Assembly: GCA_024648695.1 (NCBI GenBank)
Contig: JACAVV010000016.1
Span: 1 to 64,000 of the forward strand
Length of the DNA stretch: 64,000 bases
Reading direction: 5' to 3'
DNA from: Nitrospina sp.
Lineage (GTDB): Bacteria > Nitrospinota > Nitrospinia > Nitrospinales > JACRGP01
The notes under the pieces were generated by a model. The model worked only from the letters and a program-made list of their open reading frames with translations. It made no database searches and had not been told where the DNA came from. The position numbers and the translations under genes were made by a program. Positions 3,825-16,017 of the stretch are shown here, one piece after another (the stretch's first letter is position 1; each line of letters opens with the position of its first letter).

Positions 3825-4166
3825 CTATTTTTTAGCTTTCGTTTTTGCTTTAGCTTTAGCCTTGGCTTTCGTTTTTGCTTTAGCCTTAGGCTTAGCTTTT
3901 GCTTTGGTTTTTGTTTTCGCTTTTGCTTTAGTTTTTGCCTTGCTCTTTGCGGCTGTTTTTGATTTTGCCGCAGTTTTTGTTTTTGCTTTAGCTTTCGTTT
4001 TAGCTTTAGCTTTTATTTTCGCCTTAGCTTTGGTAGCTGTTTTAGCTTTGGCTTTGGTCTTGGCTTTAGCTTTTACTTTCGTTTTAGCTTTAGCCTTTGT
4101 TGCCGTTTTGGCTTTGGCTTTTGTTTTTGCCTTAGCCTTGGTTTTTGCTTTTGCCTTGGTTGCCAT
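3825..4166 (-). CDS. Lys/Ala/Thr repeat, histone H1-like DNA-binding protein
   Basis: A 113-aa protein made almost wholly of the tetrads AKAK, TKAK and TATK. This very basic low-complexity composition is shared with histone H1 tails and bacterial AlgP/Hc1-like proteins. It probably coats or condenses DNA, or binds RNA, without a folded domain. The ATG at 4166 has an excellent ribosome site (GGAGA six bases upstream); a longer reading to 4211 lacks one. A good sigma70-type promoter sits 57 bases further upstream. The repeat is prone to slippage, so length will vary among strains. Function is inferred from composition only. Confidence 0.75.
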   Translation of the reverse strand: MATKAKAKTKAKAKTKAKAKTATKAKAKTKVKAKAKTKAKAKTATKAKAKIKAKAKTKAKAKTKTAAKSKTAAKSKAKTKAKAKTKTKAKAKPKAKAKTKAKAKAKAKTKAKK

Positions 4167-4222
4167 CAAGGTCTCCTTTCGTGATATTTGATTACTCGTT
4201 TCAGCGCCCAAATATCGTTGTT

Positions 4223-4463: not shown

Positions 4464-5249
4464 ATGAATGTTTCTGTCGATTTCAAAAAATTAAAAATGT
4501 TTGAAGCCTGTAATGAACTGGTTCATGGTTTCACCATACGCACTTACCAGGATTACAATTCAAAAAGGCATGCCCTGTTTCCCGGCTTAAATAAAGGCGA
4601 TGAGACCTATCGCTTGCATTCCGCCTGGGTGTTGAAAGCTTTGTCCATCGATTCTAAAAATTTGTTTACTGTGAATCAGGTGCATGGCGACACGGTGTGC
4701 GTTGTAAAAAACAGGAAACCAAAAAACGATGCGCATCTTCAAAAGGCAGATGCGATCGTCACTCATCTTGAAGAATTTCCTCTAGGCATATGGACTGCGG
4801 ATTGTGTCCCTGTTTTGATTTATGACAAACGCTTACGTGTGCTCGGACTGGTTCATGCCGGACGGCGCGGTACGGAAATAAATATCGTTCGCAAAACGCT
4901 TCAAACTTTAAACAAGGAATTTGGTTGCCTTGCAAAAGACATTGCACTGGGTCTCGGTCCGGCCATAGGGAAATGTTGCTATGAGGTCGACGAGCCTTGT
5001 TTGACAGGCTTTAAACGTTCCTACCCCTATTGGGAATCCCTGGTGTCACCTTCCCCTTCGCACGGAAGATTTTATCTCGATTTGTTAAATGCCAACGCAA
5101 TAGATGCCGTCAGTTTCGGGCTTCAGGAAAACCAGATAGAGAGAATGCCCTATTGCACTTCTTGCGATAACAACATGTTTTATTCATACAGGAGGGATGG
5201 CAATGCAGGAAGGATTTTAACGGTGGCTATGATTCGCAAAAAAGCGTAA
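4464..5249 (+). CDS. pgeF: PgeF/YfiH-type multicopper laccase-domain protein
   Basis: A 261-aa protein of the Cu-oxidase_4 (DUF152) family, whose members include the peptidoglycan editing factor PgeF and purine-nucleoside-active enzymes. Family blocks are clear: VNQVHGDTV, the TADCVPVLIYD cysteine motif, LVHAGRRGT, LGLGPAIGKCCYEV and the C-terminal CTSCDNNMFYSYRRDG. The metal-site Cys and His residues therefore look intact. Length is standard. The neighbouring murein genes (425-2362) fit a role in wall editing, but this is context only. The ATG at 4464 follows a U-rich leader with no Shine-Dalgarno sequence. Confidence 0.88.
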   Translation: MNVSVDFKKLKMFEACNELVHGFTIRTYQDYNSKRHALFPGLNKGDETYRLHSAWVLKALSIDSKNLFTVNQVHGDTVCVVKNRKPKNDAHLQKADAIVTHLEEFPLGIWTADCVPVLIYDKRLRVLGLVHAGRRGTEINIVRKTLQTLNKEFGCLAKDIALGLGPAIGKCCYEVDEPCLTGFKRSYPYWESLVSPSPSHGRFYLDLLNANAIDAVSFGLQENQIERMPYCTSCDNNMFYSYRRDGNAGRILTVAMIRKKA

Positions 5250-5284
5250 TGAAGAATTCCAAACCAGTTTCATTGAAAACATTT

Positions 5285-7873
5285 TTAAGGGGAAGACTTT
5301 TTTTGGTTTAATGGCAGGGTGAAATAAAGGATGGTTCCTTTGCCCCCTTCGCTTTCCGCCCAGATGGAACCCCCGTGCATCTCCACCAGCTTTTTAGTGA
5401 TCGCCAATCCCAATCCGGTTCCCGAGGCGCCTCGAGTGAATGAAGAATCCACTTGATGAAACACATCGAAAATTCTGGCCAAGTGTTCTTCCGGTATACC
5501 ACAACCTGTATCCACCACCTGAAACATTACCGTCTCACCGGTTTTTTTGACAATCACGCGGACGGTTCCTGTATCGGTGAACTTGATGGCATTGCTCAAC
5601 AAGTTGAGTAAAATCTGTTTCAGGCGAACGGGGTCCGCTTTCAATTCCAGATCCTGGCATTCAGTTTCCAGCTTGAGTCCCTTGTTCTGGGCGATAACCT
5701 GGATGTTGGAAACCACATCCTGGACCAGAGATTTGATGTTAAGAGGCTCAATGTTTAACGCCATTTTCCCAACTTCGATTTTTGAGAAGTCCAGCAAGTC
5801 TTCAATCAAGTCCAGCAAATGTTTACTCGAACCCTCAATGTCCCGGGCAATGTCATTGATATCGGAAGGGGGCGGCAGTTCCTTTTCATCCGTAAGCAAT
5901 GGCGTGTTGCCAAGTACCACGTTGAGAGGCGTGCGGAACTCGTGCGATATGGTGCTGATGAAATTGGTTTTGAGTCGGTTGGACTCCTCAGCCTTTTGCG
6001 CCGCCAGTTTCAATTCCGCTTCCACTTTATTGCGCTCGGTGATATCGATTCCGAAACCAATGATTTCGGCGACCTTTCCCGTATCATCCCGGCGATAGGA
6101 GAAGTTCCACGAAATGGTACATAATTCCTTGAAGCAGGTGGTCATGATCATTTCGTAGTCAACCACGGGACCTTGTTCGATTTTTTTCAGGAGCTGGTCA
6201 ACCTGGCCGTAATGATCGCCGGGAAAAAAAAGTTTCCACCAGTTGGCATCAGCCAATTGTTCCCAGGTGTAGCCCGTGGAATGAAGTACGGCAGGATTGG
6301 CAAAGTTGATCGCGCCTTCAGGGGACAAACGGCAAATCAGGGACGGTGTTTTTTCAATGATCTTGGCACTGTAATCGCGTTCTTCACGCAATGCCGTTTC
6401 AATGCGTTTTCTTTCGGTGATGTCACGTACGATTCCCAGATACAATAAAGGTCGCGTGTCTTTCGTCGCGCGCGGTTGACGCCTCCTTTCCGGCATTTTC
6501 AGTTCGCTGACTGATAGTTCCATCGGAAACACAGACCCGTCCTTCCGGCGCCCAACCACTTCAATCACCTTGCCCAAAATATTTTTGCGGTGGGTCTCCA
6601 GCAAGGACTGCAATCCTTTGTGATCCATATGATAATGCGGTTCGGGCATGAGCAGATTGATTCGTTTACCGAGCACCTCAAAAGCCTTGAAACCGAAAAT
6701 AGATTCGGCCGCAGGGTTAATGGATTCAATGGAACCATTTTGAAATGTGGTGATAATGCCGTCCAGTGCATTGACCACAATGGACCGGATTCGTTCTTCA
6801 CTGGCGCTGACAGTGGCATAAGCCCAGATCCGCTCGATTCCCAATGCGATCTCCGAGGACACGCCCGACAAGGCATGTTCGAGAGCTGGACTGATTTCCT
6901 CCCGAGAATACAGGTCAAGAATGCCCATTAATCGGCCTTCAACAATCAGAGGATAACTCGCGTAGGCCCTGACCTTTTCCTTGATCAACCACTCCCGCTC
7001 CTCAAAGTGGGAATCGTTTTGAATATCGTTCGAAACCAACGGGACCCGGTTTTTGACCGTTTGTTCAACCAGATCGCGGTCCCGGTTGATCATCGAATCG
7101 GAAATAAAAATTTCATCTGCCTGACCGTGGCCCTGCAGTTCCAAAAGGTGGTCCCCTGTGTGAAGAGTCCAGATTCTTGCAAACACCGCGTTGCCGTATT
7201 GAATGATCGCCTTGAGGCATTGTCTTGAAATAGGAGGTAAGGAATCGCCACCCGCAAGAATCGATCCGATTTCTGCACTCAGGCTACCCAGGCGAATGCG
7301 CTCCGCCAGCTTCTGCTCCGCATACCTGCGCTCGGTGCAGTTTTCTCCGATTCCGACAATGCCGATCACCCGGTTCCGGTCATCAAACCGTGGCGACAAA
7401 GTGAGCTTGACCCACACTCGGCGTCCGTCTTTTGCCAATTCCTGGATTTCACAGGTGGTGCCTTTCTTCTCCGACAAAATGTATTTAAACACCTCCATGA
7501 TTTTTTGTTTGTTTTCCGGATCGTCCGGATACACCACGCCAATCTTTTGTTTTCCCACCATCTCTTCGGATTGATAACCAAGCAAGTTTTCGGCACCCTT
7601 GTTCCAGAAAAGGACGTTGCCTTCCAGGTCGGTTGAAATAATGGAGATACCTGTTGGGCTCTCCATGATATTTTGCAGGAAACGGTTTTGGGATCGCCAG
7701 GATTCTTCAAGCACCTTTCGCAAGGATTCGTTTTTTTCCAGGCGAGATACTTTTTCCCTCAAGGATTCAATCTCCTTGATGAAATCTGATTTTTTCCAGT
7801 ATTCGTAACTTGAGTCGTTCATAGTTGCGCACTGATTGCCAAAATGACCGCCGGGAATTCCGGTCATATGCAA
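5285..7873 (-). CDS. Multi-PAS/GAF sensor histidine kinase (orphan)
   Basis: An 862-aa cytoplasmic-looking kinase without membrane segments. Order of domains: coiled coil about 30-60, PAS/PAC about 65-185, GAF about 195-350, PAS about 355-490, PAS about 500-620, HisKA with STISHEFRTPLN near 645, and HATPase_c to the end with LLNLLSNAIKFT (N box), VVDTGCGIPE (G1) and GTGLGLAITKK (G2). All kinase motifs are intact, and there is no receiver domain and no adjacent response regulator, so its partner lies elsewhere. Signals are probably sensed inside the cell. The ATG at 7873 has no clear ribosome site; the in-frame ATG at 7822 (MNDSSYEYW) is equally possible. Confidence 0.9.
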   Translation of the reverse strand: MHMTGIPGGHFGNQCATMNDSSYEYWKKSDFIKEIESLREKVSRLEKNESLRKVLEESWRSQNRFLQNIMESPTGISIISTDLEGNVLFWNKGAENLLGYQSEEMVGKQKIGVVYPDDPENKQKIMEVFKYILSEKKGTTCEIQELAKDGRRVWVKLTLSPRFDDRNRVIGIVGIGENCTERRYAEQKLAERIRLGSLSAEIGSILAGGDSLPPISRQCLKAIIQYGNAVFARIWTLHTGDHLLELQGHGQADEIFISDSMINRDRDLVEQTVKNRVPLVSNDIQNDSHFEEREWLIKEKVRAYASYPLIVEGRLMGILDLYSREEISPALEHALSGVSSEIALGIERIWAYATVSASEERIRSIVVNALDGIITTFQNGSIESINPAAESIFGFKAFEVLGKRINLLMPEPHYHMDHKGLQSLLETHRKNILGKVIEVVGRRKDGSVFPMELSVSELKMPERRRQPRATKDTRPLLYLGIVRDITERKRIETALREERDYSAKIIEKTPSLICRLSPEGAINFANPAVLHSTGYTWEQLADANWWKLFFPGDHYGQVDQLLKKIEQGPVVDYEMIMTTCFKELCTISWNFSYRRDDTGKVAEIIGFGIDITERNKVEAELKLAAQKAEESNRLKTNFISTISHEFRTPLNVVLGNTPLLTDEKELPPPSDINDIARDIEGSSKHLLDLIEDLLDFSKIEVGKMALNIEPLNIKSLVQDVVSNIQVIAQNKGLKLETECQDLELKADPVRLKQILLNLLSNAIKFTDTGTVRVIVKKTGETVMFQVVDTGCGIPEEHLARIFDVFHQVDSSFTRGASGTGLGLAITKKLVEMHGGSIWAESEGGKGTILYFTLPLNQKKSSP

Positions 7874-7965
7874 AAGTTAATGGAAGCTACCAGGATTTCC
7901 TGGAATGATATCATTTCAATTTAAAGAAACACAATGAAACAAAATTCACTCCACGAATTCACGAG

Positions 7966-8006
7966 CCAAAAAAGAAGAGACTCAGGGCCACCCTGGCTTG
8001 GCCTGA
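7966..8006 (-). terminator. Likely terminator of the three-gene GHKL ATPase cassette
   Basis: On the minus strand a stem of TCAGGCCA pairing with TGGCCCTGA (one bulge, eight-base loop) is followed by a T-rich run. It begins 30 bases past the stop codon of the last cassette gene. Confidence 0.55.
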
Positions 8007-8035
8007 TTCCTTGAAATATTCAAGAACCATACGGA

Positions 8036-8770
8036 TTATTTATTCAGTAAATCCAGAGACTTCCATTCATCAAACTCATATGGCAACAGGAACAGAATGC
8101 CCTCCGCAGTAAGACTGTACAAATCAAAGGTCATATCCAACTGCTGAATCACATTTATGAATCGGAACAGGTTCCCCCTTTTGGATTTAGATAAAATGCC
8201 CCGTTTCGGCGCTTTCCTTTTGCTGTCGAAATAAAGTACATCTGCCGCTTCTATGATTGCTGAATTTGAAATAAAATCCTGCCTCATTACCAATTGGTGG
8301 TAAATTTGGCTTTCATTAAAAACAGGTCCCCATAAAAGTAACCGGGCTTTTAATCCATGGACTTTGAAAACTGAAAATGGACCCGCAAGAAGATGACGAT
8401 GACTGGTTCGAAAATCCTGTTCCAGAATATGACGGTAATCCTTTCCAGGCTTGCGCTTTCCTTCCAGGTTTTCAGGACACACCTGGTCAAAATAAAAAAG
8501 TGATAACCAACTCCAGAGCCCTTTGCTTTCAGGGGACATGATACTGATTCTGTCATTCCAAATATCGTTTAAATAGTTGAGCATTTCAATGCGGGTGTCG
8601 AATTCCCTGCTTTCAATATTAACGGGAACAACAATGGCCTTGGAAAAATTGCTGTCGTATAAAATTTCCAGTGGTGGAGCCAGATCAGGATGAATCCGCA
8701 GTTTTTCAAGGTAATCCCGAAACCGGTTGATCCCCTGAGCATTCAGTTGTCTTAATGCACGCATCGACAT
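8036..8770 (-). CDS. Unrecognised protein, third gene of GHKL cassette
   Basis: A 244-aa soluble protein with no signal peptide or membrane segment, and I do not recognise the family. It has a mixed alpha/beta composition. The N-terminus (RALRQLNAQGINRF) looks helical, there is a Trp-rich patch near residue 105 (GLWSWLSLFYFD), and a Lys/Arg-rich stretch lies near 190-200. The C-terminus (about 200-240) looks like a small winged-helix-like segment, though this is a guess. Its ATG overlaps the TAA of the preceding gene by one base (TAATG), so it is almost certainly translated by coupling. It is the last gene of the cassette and is followed by a hairpin terminator. Confidence 0.75.
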   Translation of the reverse strand: MSMRALRQLNAQGINRFRDYLEKLRIHPDLAPPLEILYDSNFSKAIVVPVNIESREFDTRIEMLNYLNDIWNDRISIMSPESKGLWSWLSLFYFDQVCPENLEGKRKPGKDYRHILEQDFRTSHRHLLAGPFSVFKVHGLKARLLLWGPVFNESQIYHQLVMRQDFISNSAIIEAADVLYFDSKRKAPKRGILSKSKRGNLFRFINVIQQLDMTFDLYSLTAEGILFLLPYEFDEWKSLDLLNK

Positions 8771-9531
8771 TACTCTTTATCAATAAATTCTTTATACAGG
8801 TTCAACTGGTTACGGTATTTACAGAAAGCCTCCACTGCACCATTCATCCACTCACTTTGTTCTATTACCAATGTTGCCCTTCGACCGGAAGGTGGAGAGC
8901 CCACACCGGGAAGCTTTGCTATAAACCTTATCCACAAGGCTGGCCAGTCATCTTCATCCAGTTCGGGATCAAAACTCTCGTCCGAAAAAATATGATGCAG
9001 GACCTGGCGCAGAACCTCCGGATAAACCAGAGCGGAAAAAGCGATATCCGACCTGGCGATTTCTTTTATGGAATCTATCCGGTTATTCAATCGAAGTGTC
9101 GGCCAATCCCCTTCAAGATCCAGTTTCCAGATCTGGTCTCCCAGCTCTTCTGAAAACTCGACATGGAGGAGGCTGACTTTTCCTGGCATATTTTGGTCGG
9201 CCCCTTTCGGAAAAATCTTGTCCGCCAGCGCGATAATGCGTCCCTTCTGCACTACCTTCATTCGATACAAAGGAATGACACCGGGTGCTATCTTCGACAA
9301 CTCGCGGTTTTCGGGAATTTTTATCTGCCCAACGGTTCCAAAGGAAAACCGCATGTACGAGGGGCGCTTATAAGCTTCCAGAAAAATGGAAGCGTCGTTG
9401 GGCAACCGGGTCCCGGACATGTCTATCTGCGCTTCAAAGGTATAAGGATGTTGATCAAGGTTCAGCAAGGTTACTGTGACCCGATTCCCTGGAAGCTTTT
9501 TCCGGCCTGTGAAGTTTAATTTCCTGATCAT
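8770..9531 (-). CDS. Unrecognised protein, second gene of GHKL cassette
   Basis: A 253-aa protein of unknown family. The first 100 residues look beta-rich (alternating hydrophobics around NRVTVTLLNLDQHPYTF and SIFLEAYKR). The central and C-terminal parts look helical, with an acidic stretch SFDPELDEDDW near 193 and a conserved-looking patch WNGAVEAFCKYRNQLN-like at the end (WMNGAVEAFCKYR). There is no catalytic motif I can name. The start overlaps the TGA of the ATPase gene by four bases (ATGA), so stoichiometric co-expression with the ATPase is likely. It could be an adaptor between the ATPase and the third protein. Confidence 0.75.
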   Translation of the reverse strand: MIRKLNFTGRKKLPGNRVTVTLLNLDQHPYTFEAQIDMSGTRLPNDASIFLEAYKRPSYMRFSFGTVGQIKIPENRELSKIAPGVIPLYRMKVVQKGRIIALADKIFPKGADQNMPGKVSLLHVEFSEELGDQIWKLDLEGDWPTLRLNNRIDSIKEIARSDIAFSALVYPEVLRQVLHHIFSDESFDPELDEDDWPALWIRFIAKLPGVGSPPSGRRATLVIEQSEWMNGAVEAFCKYRNQLNLYKEFIDKE

Positions 9532-11435
9532 TGTTCTGGCGCTTCGACCGTTTCGATTTTAACTCTCAGGTCCCTGTTCGGATCGAATCCGGAGACTTCA
9601 ATAAAAAATTCCGCATCCTTCAAATTAACCAAAAGCCGGTTTTGCTTGTTGAGTTTGATGATGCTTCCCTGGCTTTTTAACCGGATTGGAGGCTTGTCAA
9701 TTTCAAAGTCAAAAGGACTGTATTTGGAAAAAGGGTTCCCTCCCCGCAATTCATAACCCATCGTAACGAGAATCCACTCAGGAAACGAACCGGCCTTGGG
9801 GTTTCCGGTTATTTTGAATCCATCTGGCTTTTTAAGGAGGCTGATTTCGCCGGTCTGCCCCACAAGCTCCGGTGATTGCTGGAGTCCACTGCTGGTATTT
9901 TCACCGGTTTTGCCAATTCCTTTCTCTTTCGCGGAAATTTCAGCGGGATCCTTAACGAAAAAAATATTCTCCAGAAGCTTTTCATCAATCCCCTGCGAAG
10001 GTTTGCTAATAATCCTTACGATGTCTTTCGGGCTATTTTTCACAAAACGCAAACAGGAAGGACCGCGGACATATTTGCCTTTGAATTTTGGTGACCGCTC
10101 CTGCCATTCCGTATGGGCCGGGTTTTCCGAATCTCCCAACAAAGCCGATAACACCTTGTCGTTGATCGAAATAACCGCCCGAACCCCCTTTTGCTTGAGG
10201 CTCGTCACACCCGCTATGGTAATTCCTTCTCTGATAAAATGATCTTCCGGTTTTTTCAGACCATCATCCCGTTCGATAAAAATATCAAACCAGCTTTGCT
10301 GATAATCACCCCCTTCCGGTTTAATTTTTAAGGGAACCCGAATCGCCAATCGCTCCCTGGCCTCAAACCGGTTCCTCAGGGTTTCCAGAATATCCGGCGG
10401 AAACAGGGACTCATCCCACTTGGGAGCCCTATCTTCCCGTGGGGGATTGAGTACCACAAATTTTTCAGAGGACAAAGAATGAATCCAGCGGGTGAAAGTG
10501 CAGAGGTGATGAAAATCATCTTCGGTCAATCGGGACTCATTAAAGTCCACATGCTTTAATAAATCTTCCACCTTTTGATCATCGATAACCAGTTTCCTGC
10601 GATCCTGGTGGAGCTCGACAATCAGGTCTTTGGATAATATCGGAAAGAAGTAATGCAACAAAATCGAAGAGGCCAGGCCTTTTTTTTCGACGGAGGGGTC
10701 CGGATAGGGAATAACAACAGACAGTCCCGGCTTTCCTATTCTCTTTAATTCGAAATCCGTTGCAAACTGTTCAATAAGGGACGGATCTTCAACAGGAGAT
10801 GAGAAATCCCCGTTAAAAACTCCAAACCATCCATAGGGACAATGCTTTTCTCCATTAACCCTGTGTGTTTTCAACACAGAATGACCCATCAGATAGGTTT
10901 GTTTATCGCTTTCCCTAACGGTCATTCCAAAAAAGGAATTAATTCTTGAACTCGCCTGGAAAACCGTTTTGCCGAGACCCCATCGACCGCGATCCGCTTG
11001 ACTCTTCAGGGTCCGGCCTACATTTCTCCAGAAATAAAAGAAATCATTTTTCTGTTCAGTATGTTTAAAATCATCATCTTGCGTGGGGTCACCTTCCAAT
11101 CCTCGCGTGCCGTAATCTTCAATCAGTAAAAAATGGTCCGGTTCCATTTTTCTTGGAACATTTGTCAGCCCATTCTGTTCTGCATTAATGTGTTCCTGAA
11201 GTCCTTTCAGGTATTTGGCCAGGACCGCTTTGCCGGAATTTCGGGTAAACAACCTGAAAGATACTTTAACCGTTTGACCCGGAACTCCGGCGTCCAGAGA
11301 GTTCTGAACAGACTCGCGAACCAGAGCGTCCGCAACGCTATCCAGATGTTCCGTTGAAAAAAACTCGCTTTCAATCGGATCCGTATTCATCTCTCCGCGA
11401 GACATCACCCTGAACTTCCAAACCGGATCTGCCAT
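9528..11435 (-). CDS. GHKL-fold (Hsp90/MutL/MORC-like) ATPase, cassette leader
   Basis: A 635-aa protein with an N-terminal GHKL ATP-binding domain. The N box is ALVRESVQNSLDA (Glu41 and Asn45), the DxGxxG box is IEDYGTRG (Asp107-Gly112), and the glycine loop is RGRWGLGKTVF (Gly150-Lys156), followed by a strand typical of MutL/MORC ATPases. There is no HisKA dimerisation domain or phospho-acceptor His, so it is not a sensor kinase. Residues about 330-480 would be the transducer region. Residues 540-635 form a separate beta-rich C-terminal domain. The ATG is preceded by GAGGAAGAA. It heads a tightly overlapping three-gene operon with its own promoter, operator and terminator. By analogy with GHKL ATPases in restriction and phage-defence loci it may be a conflict system; this is inference. 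Confidence 0.8.
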   Translation of the reverse strand: MADPVWKFRVMSRGEMNTDPIESEFFSTEHLDSVADALVRESVQNSLDAGVPGQTVKVSFRLFTRNSGKAVLAKYLKGLQEHINAEQNGLTNVPRKMEPDHFLLIEDYGTRGLEGDPTQDDDFKHTEQKNDFFYFWRNVGRTLKSQADRGRWGLGKTVFQASSRINSFFGMTVRESDKQTYLMGHSVLKTHRVNGEKHCPYGWFGVFNGDFSSPVEDPSLIEQFATDFELKRIGKPGLSVVIPYPDPSVEKKGLASSILLHYFFPILSKDLIVELHQDRRKLVIDDQKVEDLLKHVDFNESRLTEDDFHHLCTFTRWIHSLSSEKFVVLNPPREDRAPKWDESLFPPDILETLRNRFEARERLAIRVPLKIKPEGGDYQQSWFDIFIERDDGLKKPEDHFIREGITIAGVTSLKQKGVRAVISINDKVLSALLGDSENPAHTEWQERSPKFKGKYVRGPSCLRFVKNSPKDIVRIISKPSQGIDEKLLENIFFVKDPAEISAKEKGIGKTGENTSSGLQQSPELVGQTGEISLLKKPDGFKITGNPKAGSFPEWILVTMGYELRGGNPFSKYSPFDFEIDKPPIRLKSQGSIIKLNKQNRLLVNLKDAEFFIEVSGFDPNRDLRVKIETVEAPEQ

Positions 11436-11468
11436 TTCTTCCTCATTCTCCTGGAATTGGGGAATTCA

Positions 11469-11497
11469 ATTTTATCTGTCTTGAAAACTATTTTCAA
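11469..11497 (-). promoter_or_regulatory. Promoter with overlapping palindromic operator, GHKL cassette
   Basis: On the minus strand: -35 TTGAAA, 17-base spacer, -10 TAAAAT. A perfect palindrome TTGAAAA-3-TTTTCAA (11481-11497) covers the -35 and the first half of the spacer, a typical place for a repressor. It ends 33 bases before the ATPase start codon. Confidence 0.6.
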
Positions 11498-11518
11498 TTC
11501 GCTTGTTGTCGGGATCGC

Positions 11519-11547
11519 TTGAAAGCCATCGGGATTCAATTTATAAT
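11519..11547 (+). promoter_or_regulatory. Sigma70-type promoter for the 594-aa gene
   Basis: -35 TTGAAA (11519-11524), 17-base spacer, perfect -10 TATAAT (11542-11547). It faces away from the cassette promoter and leaves a leader of about 135 bases before the start at 11688. A second TATAAT-like string lies near 11566. Confidence 0.55.
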
Positions 11548-11687
11548 AGGCTCAGTCCTTCATATAATGAAAAGCGTCTCCCCAGCAATTAAAATTGATT
11601 CATCACTCCAGAGATTAAGGCTCAGGATCCAATTGCGAATGACATGGATCCACCAGAAACCTGGCGAATCCCACAAATTAAGGAAAT

Positions 11688-13472
11688 ATGGAAACCGATA
11701 CAAAATTTTTCGAATTGGGAAGTTTTCCTTTTGCGCTGGAATGGATTCAATCCATGCCTCATCGCGTGGAAGAAATCTTAGGTCAGACCCCGGTTGAAGA
11801 GCAGATACGCTTGGCAATGCAACTACCAGGCCAAGAGCGGCTGGACCTTTTAATGCTCTCGCCGAAAGGAATAGAAGTCGTTCGGGCAATGCCTCCAGAA
11901 GAGATTCATTACATGATCAAGCACCTGGGACCGGAACAATGTTTTCCCGTGCTATCAGTTTTGTCCACCGACCAGGTGCAATATCTGTTCGATGTGGAGT
12001 GGTGGTATGGAGATACATTTATTCCCGAAAGAGCGATCTACTGGCTCCATTTGTTCGATCAATGTGAAGAACCCAAGGTTCTGGAATGGCTGTTGACCGA
12101 AGAGTTTGACCAAAAGGTGATGCTGTTGCAATCGCTCATTCTGGTAAGAAAACGGGATGAGATGACCGACGATTACCAGAATACCGAGGATATGCCCACC
12201 TTCACTCTGGACGGAGTGTACGACATTTTTTTAAAAGTTCCAGATATCGAACCGGTCCTTAAAAAGAATTTCAAATTACTTCGGGAAAACAATGAAAAAG
12301 TCTATTTCAGCCTGCTGGAAGCTGTTATTTGGTATCCCGTAACACCCACATTGGAAAAGGCGTACCAATGGCGCGTGGTGCGAACCGGCGAACGTGGCAT
12401 TCCCGAACTGGAAGAAGCCATTTCGGTGTACAGCCGTCTGGATCCAGAATCCCTGAAAGAGGATATTCCGGAGCCCGACTATTTTGGTGCCGGCGGTAAA
12501 TACAGGGTGGCTCCTGTCTTTCCACTGTTCAAACTGTCCGCTACCAGTTTTTTCGGGCAATGTTTGAAAGAAGTGGACAACCGGGACCGCCTTGAAGCTC
12601 TGCGTTGGGAACTGGTGTACCTTGCCAATAAAGTTCTGGTTGCTGACAAGGTAGACCCCACCTTGCCGGACAGTTCCGTTCACACGATGAAAAAGGTATT
12701 GGGCTATGTGAATATCGGTCTGGAATTGGGCGCCAAGGGAGATCCGGTGCGAGGCACCAGGATATTGGAAAGAAGCTGGATGCAGTCCTTGTTCCAGGTA
12801 GGATTCGGACGCTTGCTCCAGGTGAGTTGGCAAGCCAAAAACCTGGTGAAAGACCAGGGAGCCTTATTGCCTGTGGTTTTGACGGAAACCCAAAACAATC
12901 AGTTGAAGTCGCTTATCGGACGCTTTCCTAAAATCTGGAGGGCAACTTCCGGCGAGGGACTTGACGCGGAAGAGGATTTTGAATCCATGGCCGAGGTTTT
13001 GGATGCGGAACGATTTCTTGCCAAATGTTTATTTCAGGCCCGCTTCACCCGCCATTGTCTCGATCTCCAGGCAGAAAGCATGAGAACGTTCCTGGAGTCG
13101 ATGACTTTTCCTGAAAATGTGGAGGATCTGGACATACAGGTTCTGGTAAACACAAGCCTGGCTAATCATGTCCTGTATAAAGAACTGGTGTGCGAGCCCA
13201 TTTCAACAATGGCGGTTCAACCCTTTATAAATATGCTTTACATTACAGGGGCGACACAAGAACTCCCCGCTTTTCGGGAAGATCTCATAAGAGCCTATTT
13301 TAACCGCCTGCTAGAGGTTCCCATGGCCTGGTCCGATGAAGATCGAACATTTTTGAACGAGTTGCTGGATGAAAGTCTGGCCTTGTTTCATGAAGATTTC
13401 AGAGCCCTGACCAGCCGCCGCATCAACTGGAATTTTATCCGTTGTTTGGCAGTAAAAGAACTCCGGGAGTAA
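11688..13472 (+). CDS. Helical-repeat protein with MgtE-N-like start (probable DUF6178)
   Basis: A 594-aa soluble, mostly helical protein. Residues 25-110 carry short repeats resembling the intracellular MgtE N-domain or MotE repeats (QLPGQERLDLLMLSPKG, AMPPEEIHYMIKHLGPEQ, VLSVLSTDQVQYLFDVEWW). The rest is rich in W/L-containing helices. I believe it corresponds to the DUF6178 family known from delta-proteobacterial genomes, but I cannot confirm this without a search. No catalytic motif is visible. It is probably a scaffold or regulator. It stands alone behind a good promoter at 11519, about 230 bases ahead of a small gene and purH. Confidence 0.8.
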   Translation: METDTKFFELGSFPFALEWIQSMPHRVEEILGQTPVEEQIRLAMQLPGQERLDLLMLSPKGIEVVRAMPPEEIHYMIKHLGPEQCFPVLSVLSTDQVQYLFDVEWWYGDTFIPERAIYWLHLFDQCEEPKVLEWLLTEEFDQKVMLLQSLILVRKRDEMTDDYQNTEDMPTFTLDGVYDIFLKVPDIEPVLKKNFKLLRENNEKVYFSLLEAVIWYPVTPTLEKAYQWRVVRTGERGIPELEEAISVYSRLDPESLKEDIPEPDYFGAGGKYRVAPVFPLFKLSATSFFGQCLKEVDNRDRLEALRWELVYLANKVLVADKVDPTLPDSSVHTMKKVLGYVNIGLELGAKGDPVRGTRILERSWMQSLFQVGFGRLLQVSWQAKNLVKDQGALLPVVLTETQNNQLKSLIGRFPKIWRATSGEGLDAEEDFESMAEVLDAERFLAKCLFQARFTRHCLDLQAESMRTFLESMTFPENVEDLDIQVLVNTSLANHVLYKELVCEPISTMAVQPFINMLYITGATQELPAFREDLIRAYFNRLLEVPMAWSDEDRTFLNELLDESLALFHEDFRALTSRRINWNFIRCLAVKELRE

Positions 13473-13700
13473 AATCCTGAAGGTAGCTGTTCCGAACCCG
13501 TGACAATTTTCATTCCCATTTACCAAAAAACAGTGTAGTATTTCTGCCGTCCATACCCAATAGAAGGCTCATATAATGTTGCCTATCCTTGAAATTTGAG
13601 GCCAAACGTCCTTATATCAAAAGGGTTTTGGGTTTTTTATGGTTTTCCAGGCCAGAGTTTTTATTTGTATCATTTTTTGATCGACGAGGAATTAAAACCC

Positions 13701-13889
13701 ATGTCTACAAGAGACCAGAAAATTCGCACCGTCCAGTCGGGAGGGCAGGAACCGGGCCTGCTGGAGTCCTATGGCTCGTTTCCCGTATGGTTGCTGAAAA
13801 TTATCCAGATGTTAACCCCGGATTTTCTAAACGACCTGTTGGCGCCTAAAAAAGAGAAATCAACGGAAACCGGAAAAAAGGAATCATGA
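13701..13889 (+). CDS. Small 62-aa protein coupled to purH
   Basis: A 62-aa protein of unknown function. The chosen ATG has a GAGGA ribosome site; longer in-frame readings starting at 13596 do not. It has a polar Gly/Gln N-terminus, an amphipathic or hydrophobic centre (SFPVWLLKIIQMLTPDFLN) and a Lys/Glu-rich tail. The TGA overlaps the purH ATG (ATGA), so it is co-translated with purH and may be a membrane-surface peptide or merely a coupling leader. Confidence 0.6.
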   Translation: MSTRDQKIRTVQSGGQEPGLLESYGSFPVWLLKIIQMLTPDFLNDLLAPKKEKSTETGKKES

Positions 13890-15442
13890 GTTCAGTACGA
13901 AGAGCCCTGATCAGCGTTTCCGATAAAACCCGGATCGGGGAATTAGGGCGCAAATTAAATGAGCTGGGAGTGGAGATCCTGTCCACCGGGGGCACTGCCA
14001 AACTGCTTCAGGATGAGGGCGTCCCCGTCCGCCTGGTATCGGATTATACCGGTTTTCCGGAGATGATGGGGGGACGTATCAAAACCCTGCATCCGAAAAT
14101 TCATGGAGCGATTCTTGGGCGCAGGCATCTGGATGAAGATATTCAGGCCATGCAGACCCATGAAATCGAGGCCATCGATCTGGTTGTGATCAATTTATAT
14201 CCCTTCGAGGCGACTATTCGAAAAGAAAATTGCACCCTCGAAGAAGCTATCGAGAATATCGATATCGGGGGTCCGGCCATGATTCGCTCCGCGGCAAAAA
14301 ATTATAAGGATGTGGGGGTTGTGGTAGACCCCGCTGATTATGATGTCGTGTTGGAGGAATTATCCGGCAATGAGGGGGGTCTCACATTGGAAACCCGAAA
14401 GCGGCTCAGTCAAAAGGCCTACTCCCTGACTGCCCGATACGATGCCACCATCAGCCGCTATCTTGCAGGACAACAAGAAAGCAAAACCACTTTTGGTCCG
14501 TCGTTCCAGGAACCCTATGAAAAAATTCAGGACCTGCGCTACGGAGAAAACCCGCACCAATCTGCGGCCTTGTATAAAGATGTTCAGGCCAGTGAAAATG
14601 ATCTGGTATCTGCCCGCCAACTGCAGGGCAAAGAGTTGTCCTTCAACAATTTTCTCGACATGAACGCAGTTTGGGAATTGGTGTCTGAGTTTGAGGAAAG
14701 CGCGTCTGTGATTGTGAAGCATTCCAATCCTTGCGGTGTCGCCCTGGGAATCAATCAAAGAGAAAGCTTCATCGCGGCGAGGGAAACGGATCCGGTTTCC
14801 GCTTTTGGAGGGATTTTGGGCTTCAATCATCCGGTGGATAAAGCAACTGCCGAAGAAATTACCAAAAATTTCGTGGAAGTGATAATAGCTCCCGGATATG
14901 CTCCAGAGGCATTGGAAATATTCGCAAAAAAGAAAAATGTTCGAGTGATGGAAATGCCGGAGACTGCTGTAAAGCATTCTCCCAGGAGATATGACATCAA
15001 AAGAGTAGGCGGCGGACTGTTGGTTCAGGATGCCGATACCCTTGGATACGACCCGAAGAAGTTGTCATCCGTTTCCGAAAGGACGCCCACAGAAGAAGAG
15101 TTGGCGTCGCTAAAGTTTGCCTGGATCGTGGCCAAGCATGTAAAATCGAATGCCATCGTTTATGCGCGCGGCAATGAAACCGTAGGGGTAGGTGCGGGGC
15201 AAATGAGCCGTGTGGATTCAGCACGTTTAGCGATCGAAAAGGCCCAAAAACCTGTTGCCGGTTGCGTGATGGCTTCGGATGCTTTTTTCCCCTTTCGCGA
15301 TGCCGTCGATGCGGCCGCCGAAAACGGAATCACCGCAATCATTCAGCCGGGCGGCTCTATTCGAGACAATGAAATCATAGAAGCCGCCAACGAACATAAA
15401 ATGGCGATGGTATTTACCGGTATTCGCCACTTCAAACACTAA
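13886..15442 (+). CDS. purH: Bifunctional AICAR transformylase / IMP cyclohydrolase
   Basis: A 518-aa enzyme carrying out the last two steps of de novo IMP synthesis: formylation of AICAR by 10-formyl-THF and ring closure to IMP. The N-terminal MGS-like cyclohydrolase domain (about 1-130) shows [33 protein letters not shown] and [16 protein letters not shown]. The transformylase domain from about 135 shows [26 protein letters not shown] (the Lys-His catalytic pair) and the C-terminal [10 protein letters not shown] and [10 protein letters not shown]. Length and motifs are standard. The start is set by the ATGA overlap with the 62-aa gene. Confidence 0.97.
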
Positions 15443-15509
15443 ATGGAAACCTATGAAGTTCGGGGAAAGTTCTTTCCCGTTTTTCAATTGTAAAGTAAGG
15501 AGCGATTCG

Positions 15510-15905
15510 ATGAGCAAAGTCAGCGAGCATATGAGCCGTACCTTATACAGCACCAGCAAGGACACGTATGCCCATGAGGCTATCGATGAAATGTATAAAA
15601 ACAAGATCAGCGCACTGCTGGTTAAAGGGGAATCGGATTTCGAATGGATCATCACCAAAACCGATTGGATGCTGTTGGTCCTGAAAGGAGAATGCGACCC
15701 CCAAACCCTGAAAGTTTCGGATTTAATGACACGCATCGAATACACCGTAGAGGGTGATGAAACTATTGCGGTAGCCTGTAACCGAATCCAGGAGAAAAAA
15801 GTTCGCCACTTGCCGGTCAAGGAAAACGGTAAAATCGTAGGAATGCTGTCTGTTAAAGATATAGAGAAATACTTTTTAAGCTTGCACAAGCAAACCGACT
15901 TTTAG
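15510..15905 (+). CDS. Two-CBS-domain protein
   Basis: A 131-aa protein consisting of a tandem CBS pair (Bateman module). The first repeat is VSEHMSRTLYSTSKDTYAHEAIDEMYKNK (quoted in part: residues 3-30) and the second is VSDLMTRIEYTVEGDETI with KVRHLPVKENGKIVGM. Such modules bind adenine nucleotides and relay energy status. The ATG at 15510 has AAGGAG nine bases upstream and was preferred over the longer reading from 15453. It lies 67 bases after purH on the same strand, so co-transcription is possible. Confidence 0.85.
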   Translation: MSKVSEHMSRTLYSTSKDTYAHEAIDEMYKNKISALLVKGESDFEWIITKTDWMLLVLKGECDPQTLKVSDLMTRIEYTVEGDETIAVACNRIQEKKVRHLPVKENGKIVGMLSVKDIEKYFLSLHKQTDF

Positions 15906-15910
15906 AGAAA

Positions 15911-15935
15911 TGCCCCCCTCTCCCTTCTGGGTGAG
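15911..15935. repeat. REP-like GC-rich element, copy 2 (partial)
   Basis: A C-rich half (CCCCCCTCTCCC) is followed by TTCTGGGTGAG. It looks like a shortened member of the dispersed palindrome family and lies in the gap after the CBS gene. Confidence 0.45.
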
Positions 15936-16017
15936 TTTTTTTCATAGTTGGAATTAACCCAATAAAGGAAACTGACGACTTATGTAACTTTAATTAATAT
16001 AATCCAATATATTGCTC

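Follow-up and report, generated by a model that had tools for sequence, protein, structure and literature searches.

Nitrospina sp. contig JACAVV010000016.1 (assembly GCA_024648695.1) carries, within the 64,000 nucleotides that were analysed (positions 1 to 64,000, here called the window), a cassette of three tightly packed genes on the reverse strand. The first gene (P1, 9528-11435) encodes a 635-amino-acid GHKL-type ATPase related to PDC-M33A and paraMORC2, the second (P2, 8770-9531) a protein of 253 amino acids with a predicted beta-sandwich in its N-terminal and a helical C-terminal part, and the third (P3, 8036-8770) a protein of 244 amino acids that is predicted to be mostly helical. P1 and P2 overlap by 4 bases and P2 and P3 by 1 base. 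These coordinates, lengths, and overlaps were exact in a first-pass annotation, made from the sequence, which had proposed that the cassette might be an undescribed conflict system. This paper describes the distribution of the cassette, its relationship to known candidate defence proteins, and the function that it probably has.

Distribution and insertion of the cassette

The cassette is a patchy mobile insertion between conserved genes. The inserted interval (7874-11687) is bordered on one side by a histidine kinase gene that is conserved (5285-7873, reverse strand) and on the other by a gene encoding 594 amino acids (11688-13472, forward strand), which we take to be DUF6178 and which was found in all 21 genomes searched. 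Examination of the region around the 594-amino-acid gene in seven relatives revealed the cassette in none; the kinase gene flanks the site in three of them (G011, G006, and G003) and is absent in the other four. The two flanking genes are adjacent in G011 and G006, where the empty site measures 225 and 266 bases, and in G003, a member of the window's own family, the gap is occupied by a HigB-HigA toxin-antitoxin pair (L038, 3617-4251; HigB matches PF05015 at 1.1e-20, its partner HTH_3 at 7.6e-6). In view of this pair at the same site, the gap between the kinase and 594-amino-acid genes may be a cargo hotspot.

A pattern scan of 84,980 species genomes yielded nine further loci with a P1 relative, labelled as Nitrospinae, Nitrospirae, Deltaproteobacteria, Desulfobacterales, Bacteriovoracaceae, and an unplaced proteobacterium. 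The order P1-P2-P3 is kept in all ten loci of the window family, with 42-61% identity at the nine others, and the spacing ranges from -8 to +9 bases between P1 and P2 and from -16 to +6 bases between P2 and P3. Such conservation of the three proteins and of their order at nine further loci shows that the genes are not chance open reading frames (ORFs). Of 77 genomes of the phylum, 4 encode P3, which is missing from all four other genomes of the same family (71-86% complete), and full-length P1 was found in 4 of 61 genomes, its own genome counted, with one more distant match besides. Searching 291 genomes of another phylum gave two matches, one in G080 and a short one. The self-contained, movable layout that had been noticed at first is supported, as is the patchiness among relatives that had been suggested as a test.

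A tree built jointly from the three proteins joins the Bacteriovoracaceae copy to L009 (support 98) within a clade that also holds the window (support 100), and the Nitrospinota copies L008 and L010 are placed elsewhere, away from the window clade. This nesting across lineages points to lateral transfer, although the copies come from metagenome bins. L008 and L010, which come from two members of one genus, have similar neighbours on both sides of the cassette.

Relationship to PDC-M33 and paraMORC2

The three ATP-site boxes of P1 that had led to its assignment to the MutL/MORC type of GHKL ATPases are invariant or nearly so over ten homologues. Box I (ESVQNSLDA, residues 41-49, E41..N45..DA; 11289-11315) is present in nine of the ten, those complete at that end, and box II (DYGTRGL, residues 107-113, D107-x-G-T-R-G; 11097-11117) and box III (GRWGLGK, residues 150-156, G150-x-x-G-x-G-K156; 10968-10988) in all ten, all on the reverse strand. 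Moreover, an ExxxH motif (ENPAH, residues 437-441, E437 and H441; 10113-10127, reverse strand), C-terminal to the ATPase region, is invariant in all ten. This alignment (A1) was made after trimming the extensions that L008 and L010 have at the N-terminus, and the P1 of L014 is cut by the contig end; a further alignment (A4) left out the frame-broken A gene of G008. Pfam gave no match for P1 and only unrelated weak matches for eight M33A relatives, so the GHKL assignment rests on the motifs and on kinship with M33A. P1 matches the PADLOC model PDC-M33A with an E-value of 3.6e-19, as do all ten members of the window family, and profile-profile alignment with M33A reaches 4.5e-25 over about 400 columns, covering the ATPase region and beyond. 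The M33A residues aligned to the ExxxH motif, E396 and H400, are invariant in eight of eight M33A proteins. ExxxH is the stated mark of paraMORC2 in the part consulted of the survey by Iyer, Abhiman and Aravind (2008, PMC2292703), and its invariance in both families therefore led us to identify P1 and PDC-M33A as probable paraMORC2-type ATPases, an identification made here, as no paper stating it was found.

P1 of L008 and L010 carries an N-terminal extension of roughly 230-280 amino acids (L008 7164-7985, L010 442-1134), in which the first 60 residues are conserved and a Glu- and Lys-rich stretch follows. Pfam found no match in the scanned stretch of the L008 extension. In both proteins the extension may be a host-specific signalling adaptor.

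Beyond weak chance matches, searches of P1, P2, and P3 with Pfam, NCBIfam, PHROGs, and PADLOC returned only PDC-M33A for P1. P2 and P3 were without a PADLOC match at E-values up to 1, Pfam gave single weak matches only for the ten P3 members, and sequence searches against solved structures gave nothing significant for the cassette proteins. The predicted structure of P3 has a predicted local distance difference test score (pLDDT) of 83.5 and a predicted template modelling score (pTM) of 0.79; it matched nothing in PDB or BFVD at an E-value of 0.001 (best VIA Z 2.2), which is no proof of a new fold. For P2 (pLDDT 76, pTM 0.46) Foldseek likewise found no match at 0.001, and residues ~9-110 of the model superimpose on Ig/FN3-like sandwiches (best Z 8.3, root-mean-square deviation 2.9, 93 residues aligned); this predicted sandwich is a common fold and tells no function.

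PDC-M33 has three components, of which the C component coincides with DUF6339 (PF19866). Correspondence of P2 and P3 with the B and C components was addressed by profile ranking over 437 unique ORFs from all loci, spurious frames included, among them 8 P2, 9 P3, 12 M33B, and 14 M33C proteins and 227 background ORFs of 180-420 amino acids; the divergent B proteins of L050, L021, and L052 were excluded from the B profile. The P2 profile placed M33B proteins at ranks 1-5 and 8 (p 4.2e-5; control M33C 0.89) and the M33B profile placed P2 proteins at ranks 1, 2, 4, 6, and 7 (p 0.007; control P3 0.77). Similarly, the P3 profile placed M33C proteins at ranks 1, 2, and 4 (p 5.6e-6; control M33B 0.61) and the M33C profile P3 proteins at ranks 1, 2, and 6 (p 7.9e-5; control P2 1.0), all of these p-values being optimistic because each family consists of related sequences. 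In addition, two intermediates were found: a Rhizobium plasmid locus (L019) with all three genes, matched by the P1, P2, and P3 profiles at 2.7e-64, 1e-12, and 2.9e-31, and the C protein of G080, which matches the P3 and M33C profiles weakly and PDC-M33C at 1.6e-5. Taken together with the gene order, the rankings and intermediates make homology likely, and the correspondence of P2 to PDC-M33B and of P3 to PDC-M33C (DUF6339) is weakly shown at the level of sequence profiles. P2 and P3, which the first-pass annotation had placed in no family, match none directly and are joined to PDC-M33 by these weak links. Because P2 and P3 do not match the PDC-M33B and PDC-M33C models, the cassette is classed as a relative of PDC-M33 and not as a member. 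It is a divergent branch of this known candidate system and not an undescribed kind: the suspicion of a conflict system was reasonable, but the word undescribed does not apply to a cassette whose P1 belongs with PDC-M33A and paraMORC2.

DNA-modification partners and other neighbouring features

Sixteen PDC-M33-type loci that do not belong to the window branch were inspected. A DNA methyltransferase gene lies in the neighbourhood of ten of them, and 12 have a methyltransferase or sulfur-modification-type gene nearby. For example, the record annotations list Dcm, Vsr, and AlwI in Planococcus, two adenine methylases, AlwI, and AbiG in Lactococcus, an N-6 methylase and HsdS in Ligilactobacillus, and Dcm and Vsr in Deinococcus. 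Pfam identified PF00145 at the G080 locus (4.6e-40), and methyltransferases were recognised by eye at G033, G008 contig 21, G097, G124, and G170. PAPS-reductase-like and cysteine-desulfurase-like genes stand in place of a methyltransferase at G170 (by eye) and on G008 contig 24 (Aminotran_5 at 2.6e-83; weak SspD/DndC/BrxP matches), which suggests a phosphorothioate-type modification. The Enterococcus locus adjoins AIPR and the Synechococcus locus a PD-(D/E)XK protein. Two haloarchaeal loci have no adjacent methyltransferase; in the Halobacterium locus a cytosine-methylase-like fragment was seen by eye ~5 kb upstream. The Rhizobium bridge locus L019 has no methyltransferase, as judged by eye. 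PDC-M33 occurs beside chemically different modifications, i.e., cytosine methylation, adenine methylation, and sulfur-type genes.

Two side observations were made at such loci. M33 A and B homologues occur with a different third protein in L073 (7403-13561) and L070 (1704-10862), with a weak M33C match in L070 only; the flanks hold PAPS-reductase-like and cysteine-desulfurase-like genes, which may provide a phosphorothioate-type partner for the system. Beside a canonical PDC-M33 locus, L025 carries a gene of 168 amino acids (8082-8588) that by eye resembles a small PD-(D/E)XK restriction enzyme and that no Pfam or PADLOC model matched well.

The window branch is shown to be without a linked DNA-modification gene. 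At none of its ten loci does the cassette adjoin a methyltransferase gene (only short flanks are available at L010, L011, L012, and L014), and the methylase, Vsr, or restriction genes to which paraMORC2 is usually linked are likewise adjacent at none of the ten. At greater distance, a type III-like methyltransferase is encoded ~4 kb away in L009 (PADLOC MTase_III, 5e-154) and a PD-(D/E)XK-type protein ~7 kb upstream in L013 (PF14281 at 1e-5; PDC-S26 at 4.6e-7). PADLOC was run on seven neighbour proteins, picked by eye from four of the nine other loci; besides the two just given, the L006 neighbour is a helicase resembling many helicase models (best BrxHI, 9e-40), that of L007 a WYL regulator, and those of L013 are a homing-endonuclease-like protein and two proteins without a match. 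Four methyltransferase families (PF00145, PF01555, PF02086, and PF02384) were searched in eight cassette-bearing genomes. The window genome (97% complete) has no match to PF00145, PF01555, or PF02086 and one to PF02384 on another contig; no family of the four is matched in G031, G042, and G581, whereas each of the remaining four genomes has one or more. The PF02384 match lies on contig C6 (L087, 1221-14300), in which an integrase-like gene is followed by what appears by eye to be a type I restriction-modification operon.

The promoter, palindromic operator, and terminator reported in the first-pass annotation did not rise above chance. In 7500-12000 there are 6 promoter-like sites versus 6.0 expected from shuffled sequence and 3 terminator-like sites versus 5.2 expected, folding of the 5' and 3' flanks of the cassette equals that of shuffles (z -0.08 and -0.17), and an Rfam scan of 5000-16000 gave no match. 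What had been read as an operator is an inverted repeat with arms of only 5 bp, likewise not above chance (GAATT-4-AATTC, 11454-11467); lying between a promoter-like site and the P1 start, it is at best a candidate element. Elsewhere in the window, a 128-amino-acid lysine/alanine/threonine repeat protein is encoded at 3825-4211, and similar low-complexity ORFs occur at the matching place in the Nitrospinota loci L045 (3253-3570) and L040 (6205-6714).

Proposed function and comparison with known systems

We consider it probable, though far from certain, that the cassette is a laterally moving, modification-free branch of paraMORC2 / PDC-M33 whose most likely role is protection against foreign DNA. 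In favour of this reading are the kinship of P1 with PDC-M33A, the shared ExxxH motif, the constant gene order, the profile rankings with the bridging C protein of G080, the patchy and inserted occurrence, the nested Bacteriovoracaceae copy, and the restriction-modification, AIPR, AbiG, and PD-(D/E)XK genes that adjoin PDC-M33 relatives. The cassette most likely forms an ATP-gated DNA-clamp complex, of which the clamp and the effector step are both inferred. As in MutL, MORC, and topoisomerase ATPases, ATP binding would make P1 dimerise and close as a clamp around DNA; P2 could act as an adaptor or sensor on the clamp via its beta-sandwich part, and P3 would be the output subunit. The output could be entrapment or silencing of the foreign DNA, its cleavage by an unrecognised site, or shutdown of the infected cell. 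Without a linked modification gene, foreign DNA would have to be told apart by the state of the DNA (ends, supercoiling, or replication) or by a phage protein and not by missing methylation, and the window branch may thus recognise foreign DNA otherwise than via DNA-modifying enzymes.

Several observations weigh against this reading. The cassette lies between housekeeping genes in the window and not in the defence island that had been envisaged, its base composition is ordinary (so that its transfer need not be recent), and a clear defence-type neighbour was seen at only two of the nine other loci, where neighbours were partly scanned. Pattern search of viral contigs found no copy, and a phage search gave one weak partial match. 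Direct hhalign comparisons of P2 with M33B and of P3 with M33C, run together with cross-controls, were not significant (P about 0.01 in local mode), and family searches of P1, P2, and P3 found no toxin or nuclease domain. Finally, no defence activity of PDC-M33 appears in the literature searched: no paper on PDC-M33 or DUF6339 was found by a search that covered few subscription journals and no preprints, and among the matches listed for GHKL or MORC with anti-phage terms none concerned the P1 family by its title or the start of its abstract.

The toxin- or nuclease-like identity that had been proposed for P3 would make the cassette an abortive-infection device, in which a cell-acting toxin or novel nuclease is checked or triggered by P1 and P2. 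This special case of the protective reading is doubtful, though a real possibility: close or overlapping genes suggest a fixed stoichiometry, no linked nuclease is encoded, so that the output must lie in P1-P3, and polar residues of P3 are strongly conserved, including R125-H126. On the other hand, P3 has its weak kin in DUF6339 and matches neither a toxin or nuclease family nor, significantly, a PDB or BFVD fold, and H124 of its HxH pair is replaced by Y in L011. That P1-P3 form a modification-independent bacterial MORC system, i.e., a three-subunit ATP-driven clamp that entraps and silences invading DNA without cutting and without a self-marking methylase, is a narrower proposal that we regard as unlikely; if true, it would be a prokaryotic counterpart of eukaryotic MORC silencing.

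The cassette might also be a restriction-modification accessory served by a methyltransferase encoded elsewhere in the genome, as the usual company of PDC-M33 relatives, the host PF02384 gene beside type I specificity and restriction subunits (by eye), and the type III-like methyltransferase of L009 would allow. This is improbable given that the host lacks the other three methyltransferase families, that G031, G042, and G581 lack all four, and that no methyltransferase adjoins the cassette in 10/10 loci, some with short flanks. A role in host physiology or mismatch-repair-like DNA repair, on which Iyer et al. speculated, in the part consulted (PMC2292703), for versions outside restriction-modification contexts, would suit the housekeeping neighbours in the window, the stand-alone occurrence, the ordinary base composition, and the similar surroundings of L008 and L010. 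Nevertheless, 73 of the 77 genomes of the phylum lack the cassette, the tree indicates lateral transfer, and the site is shared with a toxin-antitoxin pair, and we therefore give this explanation a low probability.

Under the preferred reading of a modification-free protective branch, the cassette matters as the simplest version, one that lost or never had a modification partner, for studying the function of the A-B-C core. Protection by the three genes alone would mean that the core is a self-sufficient immune unit whose self/non-self rule is not methylation. The cassette also bears on the proposed restriction-system origin of the eukaryotic MORC silencing ATPases.

The GHKL-Shedu protein VcSduA resembles the cassette in having a GHKL ATPase that is proposed to control immune output, but fuses ATPase and nuclease domain in one protein, as far as described in the part consulted of PMC12137116, whereas no nuclease domain was found in the cassette. 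The same part of PMC2292703 that names ExxxH distinguishes five paraMORC families among the GHKL ATPases of restriction-modification loci and reports that paraMORC2 relatives share their loci with cytosine methylases, Vsr, and AIPR. By that account, paraMORC2 shares with the cassette the GHKL boxes, the ExxxH motif, and a wide but sporadic distribution, and differs from it in occurring mainly in cyanobacteria and Gram-positives within restriction-modification systems, whereas the window branch occurs stand-alone in Nitrospinota and other lineages. PDC-M33 differs from the cassette in that the latter has no linked modification gene and its P2 and P3 have no direct PADLOC match, but both consist of three tightly spaced genes in the order A-B-C, with homologous A proteins and with B and C proteins linked weakly by reciprocal ranking.

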